This document shows positions 48,207-54,470 of a stretch of DNA of 64,000 bases, in pieces. The notes beneath the pieces are model-generated. The model did not search any database. It was not told the DNA's origin and worked only from the letters and a program-made list of their open reading frames with translations. The position numbers and the translations under genes are program-made. This stretch comes from Chloroherpeton thalassium ATCC 35110 (lineage in GTDB: Bacteria; Bacteroidota; Chlorobiia; Chlorobiales; Chloroherpetonaceae), in NCBI RefSeq assembly GCF_000020525.1, contig NC_011026.1, forward strand, positions 1,284,001-1,348,000, in the 5' to 3' direction. Every line of letters begins with the position of its first letter. The first letter of the stretch is position 1.

Positions 48207-49277
48207 ATGAATTTGCGCTTATTTCTACTTTCAAGTCTTTTGAGTTTGCTCCTTTTTCAGGACGCGCTTCAGGCGCAGGTGGCCGGTTCGGCAGCGCCTT
48301 ATGCTCGCATGGGATTTTCGTCGCGTGGCATGGCGCTCGGCAACGCGGGCAGCGCCGTTGTGCTTGACGGCGAATTTCATCCGTATTATAATCCCGCTGT
48401 GCTGGCGTTTTCGGAATTCTACATGGCGCATGCCTCCTACGCGGCGCTTTCGCTTGACCGTAAATTGAATTTCGTTTCCGTCTCGGGCAAGGTCGGGCCG
48501 GGCGCGGGGCTTGGTTTTTCGTGGATTAACTCCGGCGTCTCGGACATCGACGGGCGCGATTCCGACGGCAACGCGACCGGAAATTTTTCCACCTCCGAAA
48601 ATCTCTTCATGCTTTCGTTTGCAAATCGCTTTAGTCCGGCGTTTTCGGTCGGCGTGAATTTGCGCGGCTATTTGGCCGATTTTTACGACGGCGTTGAATC
48701 CTCTTTTGCCGTCGGCTTTGATGTCGGCGCAATTTATCGCGTTCGCCCCGATTCGCTCTCCTCGCTCGCCTTCGCCGTTGCGATTCAAGATGTGAAATCA
48801 AAATACGAATGGGACACGACGCCGATTTACGATTTGGACGGCACGAACACGACCGACGACCTCCCGACGACTTACAAGCTCGGCGCAAGCTTCAGCCGCG
48901 AAAATTTGTTCGGGTTCAAAACGGTGATGATTGCCGCCGAAATTGCCATCGAAAGCATGACTTTTGACGGCGAAGAAACCTACACGGTCATGCAAAACGG
49001 GCAGCTCGTAACGGTTTCCGAACCGGTTGAGCTTAACAAATCCGAAACGCATCTGAATTTCGGCGTCATGCTCCAGCCGGTTCGCGTGCTGAAATTTCGT
49101 TTCGGTGTCGATCGGCTTGGACTTCAGGGCGTGGATTTTTCGGAAATTGCGCGACCAGCGGCGGGTTTTTCGGTTGAATATCCCGTTCAAAATGTGCTGA
49201 CGCTGATTGATTATGCTTATGTGTTTGAACCTTATACCTCAGGAATGAATGTTATTTCGGTTGGCGCAAGATTTTAA
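48207..49277 (+). CDS. PorV/PorQ-family outer membrane beta-barrel protein
   Basis: 356 residues with a signal peptide (LFLLSSLLSLLLFQDALQA). The mature N-terminus, GFSSRGMALGNAGSAVVLDG followed by YYNPAVLAF, is the hallmark of the PorV/PorQ (UPF0164) family of FadL-like barrels. Alternating amphipathic strands run to the aromatic end ISVGARF. In Bacteroidota, PorV shuttles or anchors type IX secretion substrates at the cell surface. The gene begins an operon with a lipoprotein and a T9SS-type cargo, which strongly supports a role in surface display of that cargo. Confidence 0.85.
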   Translation: MNLRLFLLSSLLSLLLFQDALQAQVAGSAAPYARMGFSSRGMALGNAGSAVVLDGEFHPYYNPAVLAFSEFYMAHASYAALSLDRKLNFVSVSGKVGPGAGLGFSWINSGVSDIDGRDSDGNATGNFSTSENLFMLSFANRFSPAFSVGVNLRGYLADFYDGVESSFAVGFDVGAIYRVRPDSLSSLAFAVAIQDVKSKYEWDTTPIYDLDGTNTTDDLPTTYKLGASFSRENLFGFKTVMIAAEIAIESMTFDGEETYTVMQNGQLVTVSEPVELNKSETHLNFGVMLQPVRVLKFRFGVDRLGLQGVDFSEIARPAAGFSVEYPVQNVLTLIDYAYVFEPYTSGMNVISVGARF

Positions 49278-49289
49278 TCTCATTTCAAC

Positions 49290-50114
49290 ATGAAAAAAAG
49301 TTTTCTCGGCCTGATTTTGCTTGGCCTTTTTTGGTTGGTAGCCTGTGGCGACGACAAAACCTTGAACAGCGAGGAAGGCGAGTCGCCGCTGCTTTTAACG
49401 CTCGATTCGCTTCGGCTGGGCGATTCAGCGATTTCTGAGCTGAACTTGGATGAATTTCTCGTTAGCGAAACCGATGCGCAATTATCGCTGAGCGTCCAAT
49501 GCACGGCGCTTCAGGTTGAAAATCCGATTGCGCAAGTCATGGCGTATTTTTACGAGCCAAGTTCGCTTGCGGAAATTGCTTCGTGCAAACTCTCGCAAAT
49601 TGCAACGCAAAACGACACCAGCAGCTACGCAGGCGATCTTTCCTTTTCGCTGAAACGAACCGAAGTTGGCGACTATACGCTTGTGGCCGTTGCGCAAGAT
49701 GCTTCGGGACAAAGCGCAAATACTTTTCGCCGAAAAATCAAATTCAAAAAAAATAACACGCCACCGGTGCTCTCGTCCGTTGCGTTTTCCAAAGACATGC
49801 TGAATGTGAGCGTTGCGCCATACGCGGACACGCTCATCGTGATGGCGAGTGTTTCCGACGACGACGGCCAAGATGATATTGCCACAGTCGAAGCGGTTTA
49901 TTCCGGTAATGCGTTTCCGATGTACGACGACGGCGACGAAGAACTGCACGGCGACAAATTTCTCGCCGATGGCATTTACTCAAGAGGATTTTCCGCCAAC
50001 TCTTCGAACAGCACCGGCCTTCGCACATTTACTTTTCATGTCATCGATAAATCCGGCGACACGAGCAACACCATCGAAAAATCTTTTTACATCAAGAGTT
50101 TAGGGACAAAATGA
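49290..50114 (+). CDS. lipoprotein of unknown function in the PorV operon
   Basis: 274 residues. Lipobox LVACG (C at about 19) after FLGLILLGLFW. The mature protein is acidic and beta-rich. KNNTPPVLSSVAFSKD and VASVSDDDGQ-like motifs (MASVSDDDGQDDIATVEAVY) suggest an Ig-like or cadherin-like fold, and DKFLADGIYSRGF resembles calcium-type D-x-D-x-D segments seen in surface proteins. It starts 12 bases after the PorV-like gene and its stop overlaps the start of the next gene (ATGA). Confidence 0.8.
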   Translation: MKKSFLGLILLGLFWLVACGDDKTLNSEEGESPLLLTLDSLRLGDSAISELNLDEFLVSETDAQLSLSVQCTALQVENPIAQVMAYFYEPSSLAEIASCKLSQIATQNDTSSYAGDLSFSLKRTEVGDYTLVAVAQDASGQSANTFRRKIKFKKNNTPPVLSSVAFSKDMLNVSVAPYADTLIVMASVSDDDGQDDIATVEAVYSGNAFPMYDDGDEELHGDKFLADGIYSRGFSANSSNSTGLRTFTFHVIDKSGDTSNTIEKSFYIKSLGTK

Positions 50115-51691
50115 CGCGTTTCCGAATCACTTTTTTCATCATCATGCTGGCGATTTTTTTTGCAGAAAACGCGAGCGCGCAAGTAAAAAAGACGCCGATC
50201 GATTTGCGAAAATATGCGCTGACGAAATCAGAGAGCAGCAATCCGACCTCGAACAGCGCGAGTCAAATTTGCCACGACTCGCTGGCTGGGAAAGTTTGGC
50301 TCGGCACAAACGACGGCTTGAATGTTTCCAGCAACGGTGGCCAATCGTTTTCCGACATCACCATTTTTCAGCGGTTTAATGAAAACGGGATTTACGGCTT
50401 GGACGCAAAAAACGACACGATTTGGGCATCGACGGCGTATGTTTCCGACGCGGAAAATAACCCGACGACCGGCGACGGCATGACGGCCTCGTTCGACGGC
50501 GGGCAAACATGGCGAAGCTTCGCCCAACCGCTGGATGCGGAGGACGACACGACCGTGCAATACGGCAACCGAATGATTTCAGCCTTGCCCGTCACCGTGT
50601 CGGAGCAAAATGTCATTTACGATATGGCAATCGGCCCCGCGCAAGGCATGGTTTGGGCGGCGACTTGGTCGGGCGGCATTCGCCGGACGCAGGATAACGG
50701 GCAGACTTGGCAGCGCGTGGTGTTGCCGCCAACGGGTTGGCAAACGATTTCCCCCGACGACGATTGTGATTTTTCGCTTGCGCCGGCGGTTGGTTCAAGC
50801 GGCCATTTGGTGTTTTTGGGATTTTCGGCGCATGTCGCGGGTGATGGCTCGGTTTGGGTTGGCACGGTGGATGGAATCTGCCGCTCGAACGACGCCGTTT
50901 CGGACGCGCCAAGCTGGACGAAGTATAACGATTCTTATGGCGGACTTTCGGGAAATTGGGTCACAGCAATTGAATCTCAACCCACCGAAGATTCACAACT
51001 GGGCACAATTTGGGCGGCAACTTGGCCAGCGGAAGGCAGTAGCGAATTTTATGCGGCGTCTTACACAAAAGACGGCGGGCTTTCTTGGAAAACTGCGCTC
51101 GACGGCGAAAAGCTTTACGATTTCGCTTTTAGCGGCGACACGGTTTATGCCGTTGGGCCGAACGGCCTTTTCATTTCACCCGATAACGGCGATTCGTGGA
51201 TGTTCAAAAGAAATCTGGTGGATGCGGAAGATTCTCAAAAATCGGTGGTGAGCACGGCCTCGTTCTACGCGGTGGAAACAGAGCCGATTGCGGGCGGCGG
51301 CACGCGGCTTTGGGTTGGCACAGGCGATGGAACGGCCATTTCTGAAGACGGCGGCAAAACTTGGCGCTTACTTCGCGCAGAACCTGAGGTTGAGAGCGTG
51401 GAAAAACCGTTTGCTTATCCAAACCCGTTTTCGCCAAAAATCGACGGCGTGGTTCGCTTGCGCTACAAGCTAAGCAAGTCTGGCTCAGTCACAATTCGGA
51501 TTTTCGATTTTTCCATGAAGCCCGTTTGCACTGTGCTAAGCGGCGGTTTCCGAAACGCACAGCAAGAGTATGAAGAAACCTGGAACGGAAAAACCTCGTT
51601 TGGCGCACGCGTTGCTAATGGCGTTTATTTTTACAGAATTGAACAGAGCGGCGAAGAAGCGCGCTGGGGAAAGATTTTGGTGCTGGAATAA
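50111..51691 (+). CDS. Asp-box beta-propeller surface protein with T9SS type A C-terminal domain
   Basis: 526 residues with signal peptide (FFIIMLAIFFAENASA). The body is a BNR/Asp-box propeller; five SxDxGxxW copies are visible: SFDGGQTW, TQDNGQTW, TKDGGLSW, SPDNGDSW and SEDGGKTW. The last 85 residues form a FlgD-like/T9SS sorting domain: FAYPNPFSPKIDGVVRLRYK, SGSVTIRIFDFSMKPV, GARVANGVYFYRIE and the end WGKILVLE. This predicts export across the outer membrane by type IX secretion. It is translationally coupled to the lipoprotein gene and probably depends on the PorV-like barrel. The ligand of the propeller is unknown. Confidence 0.88.
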   Translation: MTRFRITFFIIMLAIFFAENASAQVKKTPIDLRKYALTKSESSNPTSNSASQICHDSLAGKVWLGTNDGLNVSSNGGQSFSDITIFQRFNENGIYGLDAKNDTIWASTAYVSDAENNPTTGDGMTASFDGGQTWRSFAQPLDAEDDTTVQYGNRMISALPVTVSEQNVIYDMAIGPAQGMVWAATWSGGIRRTQDNGQTWQRVVLPPTGWQTISPDDDCDFSLAPAVGSSGHLVFLGFSAHVAGDGSVWVGTVDGICRSNDAVSDAPSWTKYNDSYGGLSGNWVTAIESQPTEDSQLGTIWAATWPAEGSSEFYAASYTKDGGLSWKTALDGEKLYDFAFSGDTVYAVGPNGLFISPDNGDSWMFKRNLVDAEDSQKSVVSTASFYAVETEPIAGGGTRLWVGTGDGTAISEDGGKTWRLLRAEPEVESVEKPFAYPNPFSPKIDGVVRLRYKLSKSGSVTIRIFDFSMKPVCTVLSGGFRNAQQEYEETWNGKTSFGARVANGVYFYRIEQSGEEARWGKILVLE

Positions 51692-51699
51692 AGCATAAG

Positions 51700-51739
51700 G
51701 TCGGGATAAAAAGAATCGGAAGAATTTTTATGTCCCGAC
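51700..51739. terminator. hairpin between convergent genes
   Basis: GTCGGGA at 51700-51706 plus TAAAAA pairs with TTTTTA (51725-51730) and TCCCGAC at 51733-51739, with a two-base bulge. No T tract follows, so termination is only plausible. Confidence 0.45.
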
Positions 51740-51751
51740 ACTTCAAGATTT

Positions 51752-52212
51752 TTATAACTCTCTTACTATGCTATTTCCGATTTTTTTACGTCCTTTGTGT
51801 TTTCTTTTCGAATAAAGCGCCTTATTTATTCCACTCCCATTCTTTTTACCTCTTTTTCCTTTTTGACGTCGAGAGGGAACTTTCCCTAAATGACTACTCA
51901 CTTGTTCATAAAGCTCAATAAGTTCAGTCTCAATTTCCGGCGGCGGAAAACCGTTTAAACCTTGTTTTGCCAAAAGGTAAGCATTTCGAAAATCATTTGC
52001 ATGAAATGCCAATGAAGCCGCACTACGATAAAGAATTGAGCGTGTCGGTTCGGCACTTGGTTCAGCCGGAAAATGCGCGGCGGCTCGCCGCTCCAGTGCC
52101 AGCGCCTGCTGAAACAAGTTAATTGGTTCGTTTTGATGACCCTTTCTTTTCAATGAAAAAGCTTCTCAGCTATATCCATAGCCTGTTCGTGTAATACTTC
52201 AATTTCTGACAT
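51752..52212 (-). pseudogene. frameshifted conserved protein, second member of a two-gene pair
   Basis: The start is ATG 52212 (MSEIEVLHEQAMDIAE), overlapping the end of the upstream gene by 14 bases. This frame runs into TGA at 52150-52152. A -1 shift at GCTGAGAAGC (52161-52170) joins it smoothly to EAFSLKRKGHQNEPINLFQQ, AAAHFPAEPSAEPTRSILYR, SAASLAFHANDFRNAYLLAK and QGLNGFPPPEIETELIELYE, so one base appears to be missing. The combined protein would have about 152 residues. Helical repeats resembling a single TPR-like unit and a Lys/Arg-rich tail are seen. I recall similar SAASLA...GLxGxPPxEIExEL proteins in cyanobacteria with no assigned function. Confidence 0.65.
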
Positions 52213-52603
52213 GTCTTTGCAGCATTGTGGTTACCGGTGTGCTAAACTCAACAACGATGACATACACTGGAAAAGATGTATCATCGGAGCGCCTTGTTTG
52301 TTTTATTTTTTTAGCAACCCTGTATTGCGGTTTATTGGTTGGGATTCGTTTTAAAATTCCAGAAATTTCCAACCGGCCACGTGTTTGTGGAAAAATTTGA
52401 TTGTCAGTTATTTCTTTGTCCCCTAACCAGTAATCTATTCCCGTTGTTGTAACAGAACGCCTTATAGCGGTATAATTTGTTTGTTCCCGTATGAGTAACA
52501 GCGCAATGGCTTCAGCGCCGTGTTCAGGTCCGTCATCTGCATTATACGCGCGAAAGAGCGCGGCTCTGTCTATTTCATGCTCATCCCAACAGACTTTGTA
52601 CAA
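52199..52603 (-). CDS. conserved hypothetical protein, first member of a two-gene pair
   Basis: 134 residues. The start TTG 52603 (MYKVCWDEHEIDRAALF) lacks a Shine-Dalgarno sequence; the frame is open a further 11 codons upstream, so the N-terminus is not certain. Conserved-looking features: RAYNADDGPEHGAEAIALLL, SVTTTGIDYWLG, RGRLEISGIL, KKIKQTRRSDDTSFPVYVIV and VEFSTPV. I recall cyanobacterial relatives that also occur beside the partner gene, but no function is known to me. It overlaps the downstream frameshifted gene by 14 bases, which points to coupled expression. Confidence 0.7.
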   Translation of the reverse strand: MYKVCWDEHEIDRAALFRAYNADDGPEHGAEAIALLLIREQTNYTAIRRSVTTTGIDYWLGDKEITDNQIFPQTRGRLEISGILKRIPTNKPQYRVAKKIKQTRRSDDTSFPVYVIVVEFSTPVTTMLQRHVRN

Positions 52604-52784
52604 ATATTCTTTGTTGCACTTATCGACTTCAATTTAGATCTAATTGCAAAACAGACTCGTTTTTAGGGTATTCTTAGCGAGTTTCCATTTTAAAACAACT
52701 TGCATAGGAAAGCGCCTTGCAAAATAACTTCAGGATCATTTTTATAGAAAATGCAAGCAAGCGCTTTGCTGTTTTAAAAAATCG

Positions 52785-54470
52785 CTAAAGTGGAACAATG
52801 AGATGCTTATCGAAGGCTTTGGTTAACAGCAACTCTTTGAGCAGCTTAATCAGGGTGGTGTCGAACTTATTGAAAAAATGAAACCCATTGAGAACGCGCT
52901 CTTGCAAAACGCCGCCTGGCAACAAGTTATCGCGGCTTTTTTCAATTTGGGCGATGAGATCGTTGTGTCGTTGTTTTTCTGCCTTGATGGTTTTCGACTT
53001 CAAGTTTTCGACTTGATTGAGCGTACTTTGCATCACCTTTTCAACACTTTGCGCCAAAGTCGGATCTATTTCCGAAAGTTTTAGCCCAAACTTTTTGAAA
53101 ATGTCGCTCAGTCCTTGAATGGCGGTTGTGGCTTCGTCTTCAATATCCACAGTGGACGCCGCAAGCAAAAGCTCGTTAATAAACTGCTGCGAATTTTGAT
53201 AAAATCGCGATAAGCTGCCTGAAATTTCCTTTTCGTTTAGAATCCGTGCCGACTTTTCAAAAACGCGCGAAATTTTAGGCTCTAACAACGATAAACTGGC
53301 TCGCGGATAAATGATGGGCATCGGAATATTGAAAAACTGATAGTTCCGCAAAAACTGTCCGAAATAAGAGATTTCACCTGGTCCTGCTACATAGGCAACC
53401 GTCGGCAATACGGTGTCTTGCACAATCGGGCGTAAAACGACATTTGGGCTGAAAAGCTCCGGCGCGGAGTGCGCAAATTCGAGCATTTCGTGTTGGCTAA
53501 AAGTTGTTTTGCCTGGCAAAAGCTCTACCGAACCTTGCCGGCGCGGCTCGATTTTCAAGCGCTGATTTTCTTGAAAAAAGTACAAATTAATCGGCCTGGG
53601 TTTTGCCTGCGCGTCGTAGCCACTTTCTTCGAGTCGCGCGCTTTGTGCAATAATGTTTTGCGAGCTTGCCGGAAATGTTTCCAATTCGCGAATAAAAACG
53701 GACTTTGCCAGCGTTTTGAACCCTTTTGGATGACTGGAAACAATGATCAGCCCTTCGTCATAAAACAGTCGAGCCAAAAGCGTTGCGAACGCCATTTCGT
53801 AAGAAACGCCTTCTTTATAGCTTTCACGAACGAGCGTGAGCATTTTTTGCTTGTAGTCCGATTCGGGAAACGCTTCCAAAATTTCCTTGCCAAGCCAATC
53901 CAAAAACTCAGGCGTGATTTGCGTTGCACCCGCGCTACTCAGCGCTTGGTAGGAAGCTTCTGAATAGGAAAACCGCTCGAGCGAATTTCCCTTTAGCAAA
54001 GAAACATGCGAAATTTCCTCATAATCGTGATCTTCAGACTCGAGCCAAAAAACAGGGACGAACTCAAAATCGGGATAGTGCTCATGCCATTTTTCAGTCA
54101 GCACAATCGCCGAAAGCGTTTTATAAATGGTGTAGACGGGACCTGTCAAAAAGCCAACTTGCTGACCCGTGACAACCGCCAGCGTTTTTTTGGAAAGCAG
54201 CGATTGAATGCGCTCAAATGTTTTCGGGCCCGAGCCAAACAATTGGTTTTGCCGCGTTAGCTCCAAGACAAGTTCCGGGCGCTGATACGTTCGCCCGCTA
54301 ACCGTTTGTATTTGGGCAGAAAGGTGCGCCGGATTGCGATAATCGTGCTGGTAAAATTGCGAGATTAGCGCATCCGTGGCAAGTGTATTGGAAGTGTAAT
54401 CAAGAAATAATTGCGAAAACTGTTTCCCGCCTTCGCTGATGCTGTGGAATGGAATTGAGTAGCTTTGCAA
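52785..54470 (-). CDS. bshC: putative cysteine ligase BshC (bacillithiol biosynthesis)
   Basis: 561 residues. BshC adds cysteine to glucosaminyl-malate to form bacillithiol, the low-molecular-weight thiol used by Firmicutes and by Bacteroidota/Chlorobiota relatives. VVTGQQVGFLTGPVYTIYKT, VPVFWLESEDHDYEEI and PTVAYVAGPGEISYFGQF are the family signatures, and a coiled-coil region sits at about residues 455-520. bshA and bshB are not in the window. It lies 12 bases after surE on the same strand and is likely co-transcribed. Confidence 0.93.
   Translation of the reverse strand: MQSYSIPFHSISEGGKQFSQLFLDYTSNTLATDALISQFYQHDYRNPAHLSAQIQTVSGRTYQRPELVLELTRQNQLFGSGPKTFERIQSLLSKKTLAVVTGQQVGFLTGPVYTIYKTLSAIVLTEKWHEHYPDFEFVPVFWLESEDHDYEEISHVSLLKGNSLERFSYSEASYQALSSAGATQITPEFLDWLGKEILEAFPESDYKQKMLTLVRESYKEGVSYEMAFATLLARLFYDEGLIIVSSHPKGFKTLAKSVFIRELETFPASSQNIIAQSARLEESGYDAQAKPRPINLYFFQENQRLKIEPRRQGSVELLPGKTTFSQHEMLEFAHSAPELFSPNVVLRPIVQDTVLPTVAYVAGPGEISYFGQFLRNYQFFNIPMPIIYPRASLSLLEPKISRVFEKSARILNEKEISGSLSRFYQNSQQFINELLLAASTVDIEDEATTAIQGLSDIFKKFGLKLSEIDPTLAQSVEKVMQSTLNQVENLKSKTIKAEKQRHNDLIAQIEKSRDNLLPGGVLQERVLNGFHFFNKFDTTLIKLLKELLLTKAFDKHLIVPL

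Follow-up and report, generated by a model that had tools for sequence, protein, structure and literature searches.

The two overlapping minus-strand reading frames, here called G1 and G2, that occupy positions 51752 to 52678 of the window (a 64,000 nt stretch of contig NC_011026.1 of Chloroherpeton thalassium ATCC 35110) are the dead relic of a two-gene module that spreads horizontally. When intact, as in other bacteria, plasmids and phages, the module probably couples a DNA- or RNA-cutting enzyme, encoded by G1, to a helper protein, encoded by G2, and acts as a toxin-like defence against viruses.

The gene pair of the window

G1 and G2 lie between a plus-strand gene with its end at 51691 and, on the minus strand, a gene (54470-52785) that we take to be that for BshC. 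The large plus-strand gene (50111-51691) presumably specifies a protein with a C-terminal segment of the FlgD-like/sorting type, and beside it 48207-49277 is, we assume, another possible outer-membrane protein gene. An inverted repeat (GTCGGGA...TCCCGAC) lies at 51700-51739, between the plus-strand gene and the end of G2; a terminator scan gave it no terminator score, and no perfect second copy occurs within the window. The features of the pair are:

52202-52678, minus strand: remnant of G1, a predicted homologue of PD-(D/E)XK-fold (restriction-endonuclease-like) nucleases, with the N-terminal third disrupted (tblastn of G1 from L061, L075 and L054; profile match; conserved residues)
52634-52642, minus strand: two in-frame stop codons, TAA (52636-52634) and TAG (52642-52640), within the G1 homology
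52150-52212, minus strand: 5' part of G2, from ATG (52212-52210) to TGA (52152-52150)
52153-52165, minus strand: G2 homology switches from frame 0 to frame -1 (tblastn pieces overlap here)
51896-52165, minus strand: TPR domain of G2 in the -1 frame, with AEPTRSILYRSAASLA (tblastn; TPR fold of the relative L054)
51752-51895, minus strand: open tail rich in Lys and Arg, without a match in relatives (no match to the C-terminal-domain profile; alignment)

The open frame of G1 runs from 52633 to 52202, with a first start codon (TTG) at 52603 and a TGA stop at 52201-52199; the remnant including the stop codon extends from 52678 to 52199. G1 and G2 share 14 nt at their junction, as they do in L054 and L061. 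Both matches are more than chance, given tblastn E-values of 5.5e-45 for G1 against L061 (50% identity) and 3.0e-26 for G2 against L054. Our coordinates, motifs and frames agree with those of the first-pass annotation, which had the second gene start inside the end of the first. Its motifs stand where it put them, but DDGPEHGAEAIA is not a conserved motif of the family; the conserved stretches are G-[FIV]-D-Y-W-L-G and R-L-E-[VI]-S-G-I in G1, and AEPTRS-[IV]-L in G2.

When intact relatives were used as tblastn queries, G1 homology reached upstream past the two in-frame stops to about 52678. The roughly 45 N-terminal residues of the relatives have no convincing counterpart in the window, and the best candidate for an N-terminal remnant in another frame (E 38) was not significant. 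The family-invariant D, E and K residues are all still present in the remnant. The first-pass annotation was right that G2 is broken by a single-base shift, but it had overlooked the two stop codons of G1 and the lack of a C-terminal domain in G2.

By tree, the nearest relatives of the window G2 are those of L075, L061, L065 and L054, and the window branch is long (1.16). In L075, L061 and L054 the gene is complete and of a long form whose C-terminal domain comprises some 250 residues, and L065 ends at a contig edge. Neither profile nor alignment gave any trace of this domain in the window, where homology ends at 51896, the -1 frame stays open as far as 51752, and the Lys/Arg-rich tail occupies the place of the domain found in L054, L061 and L075. 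With two stops in G1, a frame break in G2 and the C-terminal domain missing, the suspicion that the pair is decayed was borne out.

The segment is A+T-rich, with a GC content of 0.39-0.43 (500-base windows, 51500-52999) against 0.43-0.58 in the flanking windows. It is single-copy in its own genome (3,293,456 bases, one contig), which gave one G1 match, one G2 match and no repeat of the segment elsewhere, and there are no homologues of either gene in G083, a genome of the same family. Together these features fit acquisition followed by decay. G083 offered no clean empty site for comparison; the presumed BshC gene there ends 1 nt from a gene other than the left neighbour seen in the window.

The frame break in G2

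Programmed -1 frameshifting, raised by the first-pass annotation, would make gene 2 of the window a functional product, and the frames do overlap by 13 nt around a T-rich stretch. However, the shift is not conserved: 70 of the 76 other G2 matches in the fetched loci (own-locus copies excluded) are complete in one frame, the nearest relatives are in frame, and the six partial matches (in L051, L062, L071 and L072) break elsewhere. Nor does a stimulatory RNA structure follow the site (z 0.70 for folding against shuffles), and the upstream G1 is itself interrupted by two stops. We therefore give programmed frameshifting next to no credence. A sequencing error in a pair that is intact in life, the case that the first-pass annotation had set against its own proposal, would agree with a net change of only one base, yet a single error would leave the two separate in-frame stops and unrecognisable N-terminus of G1 to be explained, as well as a G2 without the C-terminal domain of its nearest relatives. 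On these grounds error alone is very improbable.

G1 is a predicted PD-(D/E)XK-fold protein

Neither gene belongs to a named family: no model in Pfam or NCBIfam matched above its cut-off, and nothing significant was found in PHROGs or PADLOC (PADLOC-DB 2.0.0; one PADLOC row with an E-value of 0.016 was disregarded). Full-text literature searches returned no paper dealing, by title or abstract, with the motifs or with such a pair. The first-pass statement that no function is known thus holds for these four collections.

The predicted structure of G1 is a small alpha/beta protein (pLDDT 92.5) in which the order of elements, H78-97, E100-105, E114-118, E128-135, H144-154 and E164-170 (residue numbers follow the L054 model), is that of the restriction-endonuclease-like core. 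Nucleases of this fold head the PDB matches of the model in both aligners, and members of the fold make up most of the top rows: Foldseek returned a tRNA-splicing endonuclease (E 7.3e-3), SPARDA (0.10) and MGME1 (0.11), and VIA-align returned LHK exonuclease (Z 7.1, rmsd 3.2, 98 aligned), SPARDA (6.5) and tRNA endonuclease (6.5). Many of the named viral structure matches are also PD-(D/E)XK proteins. None of the structure matches is individually significant (best Foldseek E 7.3e-3; all Z below 8), so the case for the fold rests on their agreement, the topology and the conserved residues. D113, E131, G134 and K151 are invariant in all 43 G1 rows, the window included. In 41 of these rows motif III reads E-x-S, the lysine being replaced by serine, and the invariant K151 sits in the helix after strand 3. 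The high-confidence model of G1 is thus predicted to have the PD-(D/E)XK (restriction-endonuclease-like) fold, with an invariant Asp, an invariant Glu and a lysine that has migrated into the helix that follows.

As the motif III lysine is missing, nuclease activity of G1 is not certain. The Lys to Ser change in 41 of 43 rows could alternatively mark a catalytically dead member of the fold that is used for binding, in which case the pair would be regulatory. We consider this improbable, since the invariance of D113, E131 and the helix K151 is what an active site with a migrated lysine should display, and a migrated lysine has been described in other PD-(D/E)XK families (PMC1913061). Selection also argues against a dead G1, as dN/dS values in intact pairs were 0.06-0.40 for this gene (14 of 16 computable); those for G2 were 0.05-0.19 (13 of 16).

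G2 is a TPR protein with exchangeable C-terminal domains

Residues 1-113 of the L054 G2 form a TPR domain that superimposes on Tah1 with a Z-score of 13.5 over 90 residues (rmsd 1.9), and Pfam TPR models match the family below their cut-offs only. G2 is a TPR domain alone in the fetched cyanobacterial loci, and a few longer frames occur elsewhere in cyanobacteria. Other G2 proteins share the C-terminal domain of about 250 residues noted above, and those of L003, L067 and L069 carry a different, unrelated one; there is no profile similarity between the two types. OB-fold entries are among the Foldseek rows for the long form, but they amount to no more than a hint, since matches to the TPR part take up the list. 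The TPR domain is also found fused to an ECF sigma factor (L068:6001-6957) and to a bacterial sugar transferase (L006:4309-5214).

Distribution and mobile elements

A profile search of genome contigs with the G2 alignment retrieved 66 loci, mostly from Cyanobacteriota, the others being from Bacteroidota, Pseudomonadota, Chloroflexota, Planctomycetota, Nitrospirota, Thermodesulfobacteriota and Myxococcota. G1 lies directly before G2 in most of them; the two are neighbours in cyanobacteria, as the first-pass annotation had it, and far beyond that phylum. The spread is patchy: 18 of 292 cyanobacteria, 5 of 395 genomes of another phylum, and 3 of 198 in the phylum of C. thalassium itself, one of these three being spurious. 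That match (L004, in G062) was discarded because it runs through six stops and coincides with long ORFs of no relation to the gene.

The pair is carried by plasmids of Anabaena (predicted to be conjugative), Hymenobacter and Cylindrospermum (L037). G1 was also found on nine IMG/VR viral contigs, seven with G2 and two that end just behind G1. On one phage contig (L229) the pair is situated between the genes for a late transcription activator and an endolysin, and adjoins an AbiTii-type gene (L229:6722-7612; PADLOC E 3.7e-44) that has a second domain. On another viral contig (L228) it is followed by an integrase gene. There is no conserved third gene, the largest cluster of neighbours occurring in nine loci, eight of them Nostoc by title. 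Chromosomal neighbours include genes for NB-ARC-TPR (L016), XisH-XisI (L043), YhcG (L071), HNH (L018) and DUF4288 (L019) proteins, and at L049:2607-4560 the pair precedes a caspase-like gene (PADLOC) and an ECF-type sigma factor gene (recognised by eye); these neighbours were picked by eye without a control set, and so carry no claim of enrichment.

Intact G1 is accompanied by G2 throughout one cyanobacterial family

In 42 of 46 intact pairs the genes overlap by 4 nt, the arrangement of two small, translationally coupled genes. Among 71 G2 rows, including the window, 48 have an intact G1 and 11 a broken one, and no G1 was found for the other 12. On a tree of the 66-locus set (five rows excluded: the window, L065, L023, L049 and L045) the state of G1 requires at least 14 changes, and its losses have therefore been repeated.

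The dependence of one gene on the other was surveyed in 217 genomes of one cyanobacterial family, with G1 matches in 64 and G2 matches in 76. After merging into loci, 44 of the 84 for G1 were intact, as were 88 of the 110 for G2. An intact G2 follows directly and in frame behind 43 of the 44 intact G1 genes, and in the remaining case (L150) G2 is in frame up to the end of the contig. For the 88 intact G2 loci, by comparison, G1 is intact in 43, broken in 21 and not found in 24. The remaining loci consist of five pairs with both genes broken and of broken genes that lack their partner, 14 of them G1 and 16 G2. When the 45 G2 loci without an intact G1 were re-read on the DNA, 6 of the 24 'absent' cases were seen to retain a recognisable piece of G1 (domain E <0.5), and in none of the 24 did a contig end within 1.5 kb account for the absence. 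Because the loci share ancestry, we attach no exact probability to this one-sidedness, but it would not be expected of two equally dispensable genes.

That none of the 44 intact G1 loci is without an in-frame G2 is the pattern of a Type II-like toxin-antitoxin system, in which the toxin gene is not kept alone. One-sided loss and mobile spread fit a mobile nuclease that cannot persist without its TPR partner. In both its dependence and its carriage by plasmids and phages, the pair behaves like the toxin-antitoxin or defence pair that the first-pass annotation had suggested. We put at about even the chances that it is a toxin-antitoxin-like defence module, in which the nuclease is tolerated only with the TPR partner and is restrained until infection.

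Some lone G2 genes remain under selection

Four lone G2 genes (L177, L178, L189 and L199) have a common junction at which a PIN operon (genes of 74 and 139 aa) stands in the place of G1, with the PIN gene 21-26 nt upstream of G2. G1 is without a match in three of the genomes concerned (G254, G280 and G583), and in the fourth (G678) what matched is broken. All six comparisons among these four genomes gave dN/dS values of 0.08-0.16 for the lone G2. An antitoxin is expected, though not by strict definition, to become dispensable once its toxin is lost, and the post-loss values depart from this; purifying selection on a lone G2 implies that it does more than neutralise a neighbouring G1. The PIN genes were rejected as new partners of G2, as a small gene precedes PIN in these four loci and in L179 and L181, in the manner of VapBC. 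L016 has a Pfam PIN match, of the same type as the PIN genes before lone G2; the other PIN genes, and the small genes, were recognised by eye. In L192 and L196, a lone G2 with a dN/dS of 0.08 is situated about 92 nt behind a gene of 266-269 aa, the product of which we take to be Rpn/PD-(D/E)XK-like.

These genes lend some weight to a different reading, in which G2 acts as an independent TPR adaptor. It would have a cellular or signalling role that does not involve G1, and would recruit or activate G1, a nuclease effector, instead of restraining it, a lone G1 being useless rather than toxic. Uselessness of G1 without G2 would equally explain why intact G1 never occurs alone. Selection on G2 after the loss of G1, its retention in genomes without any G1 match, the fusions of its TPR domain to a sigma factor (L068) and a sugar transferase (L006), and the existence of at least two C-terminal domains without mutual profile similarity all point the same way. 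By itself, however, an adaptor does not account for carriage by phages and plasmids next to a gene for abortive infection, which a defence effector would explain, and we regard this reading as possible but rather unlikely. The data do not tell restraint of G1 by G2 from its activation, and they show G2 to be useful in its own right.

Comparison with known systems

PD-(D/E)XK families with a migrated lysine include DUF506, DUF790 and DUF1626 (PMC1913061), from which G1 differs in matching no Pfam family by sequence and in being coupled to a TPR gene. Residues ~73-185 of G1 resemble the nuclease domain of the SPARDA effector (PDB 9qcc, 9vx6, 9jt2 and 9jsz; Z 6.1-6.5), which is a defence nuclease; G1 differs as a separate small protein, and no Argonaute was recognised by eye among the listed neighbours of the pair. 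In the Rpn toxin-antitoxin system, a nuclease-type toxin with anti-phage activity is restrained by its partner (PMC10327210). The likeness is that of a proposed nuclease toxin with a partner, but in Rpn the antitoxin is encoded within the toxin gene, whereas the partner here is a separate TPR protein.

The TPR / GreA-B-C / PIN conflict system and the STAND-EAD systems combine TPR modules with swapped effector or output domains and are common in multicellular cyanobacteria (PMC8195603, PMC7159879). Some G1/G2 pairs likewise adjoin NB-ARC and caspase-like genes, but the scanned G2 proteins have no GreA/B or PIN matches, unlike the TPR / GreA-B-C / PIN system, and the available portions of the two articles do not mention the pair. 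XisH-XisI and VapBC are also small two-gene nuclease modules, and lie directly upstream of some lone G2 genes, but G1 matches neither XisH nor PIN models.

Proposed function

In intact copies, G1 would be a PD-(D/E)XK-fold nuclease in which the helix after strand 3, and no longer the strand itself, supplies the catalytic lysine, and translation of G2 would begin at a start codon inside the end of G1. We infer that the TPR protein may restrain the nuclease, that the extra C-terminal domain, frequent on G2, could sense a trigger, and that the nuclease would be released upon infection or if G2 were lost, much as happens in toxin-antitoxin or abortive-infection systems; an anti-phage function would follow. 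More tentatively, the pair might represent an undescribed immune module borne by phages and plasmids, in which a compact migrated-lysine nuclease is licensed by a TPR switch whose C-terminal output or sensor domains, including a sigma factor, are exchangeable, and the switch is kept alone after nuclease loss, for example to confer immunity when further copies of the module arrive.

Two families that have no curated model, although they are found side by side repeatedly in cyanobacteria, Bacteroidota, proteobacteria, Chloroflexota, planctomycetes and phage contigs, gain a testable function from the analysis. The one-sided pattern of nuclease-gene loss makes a clear prediction for a toxicity assay, and the lone, still selected G2 genes pose a sharp question of anti-addiction immunity.
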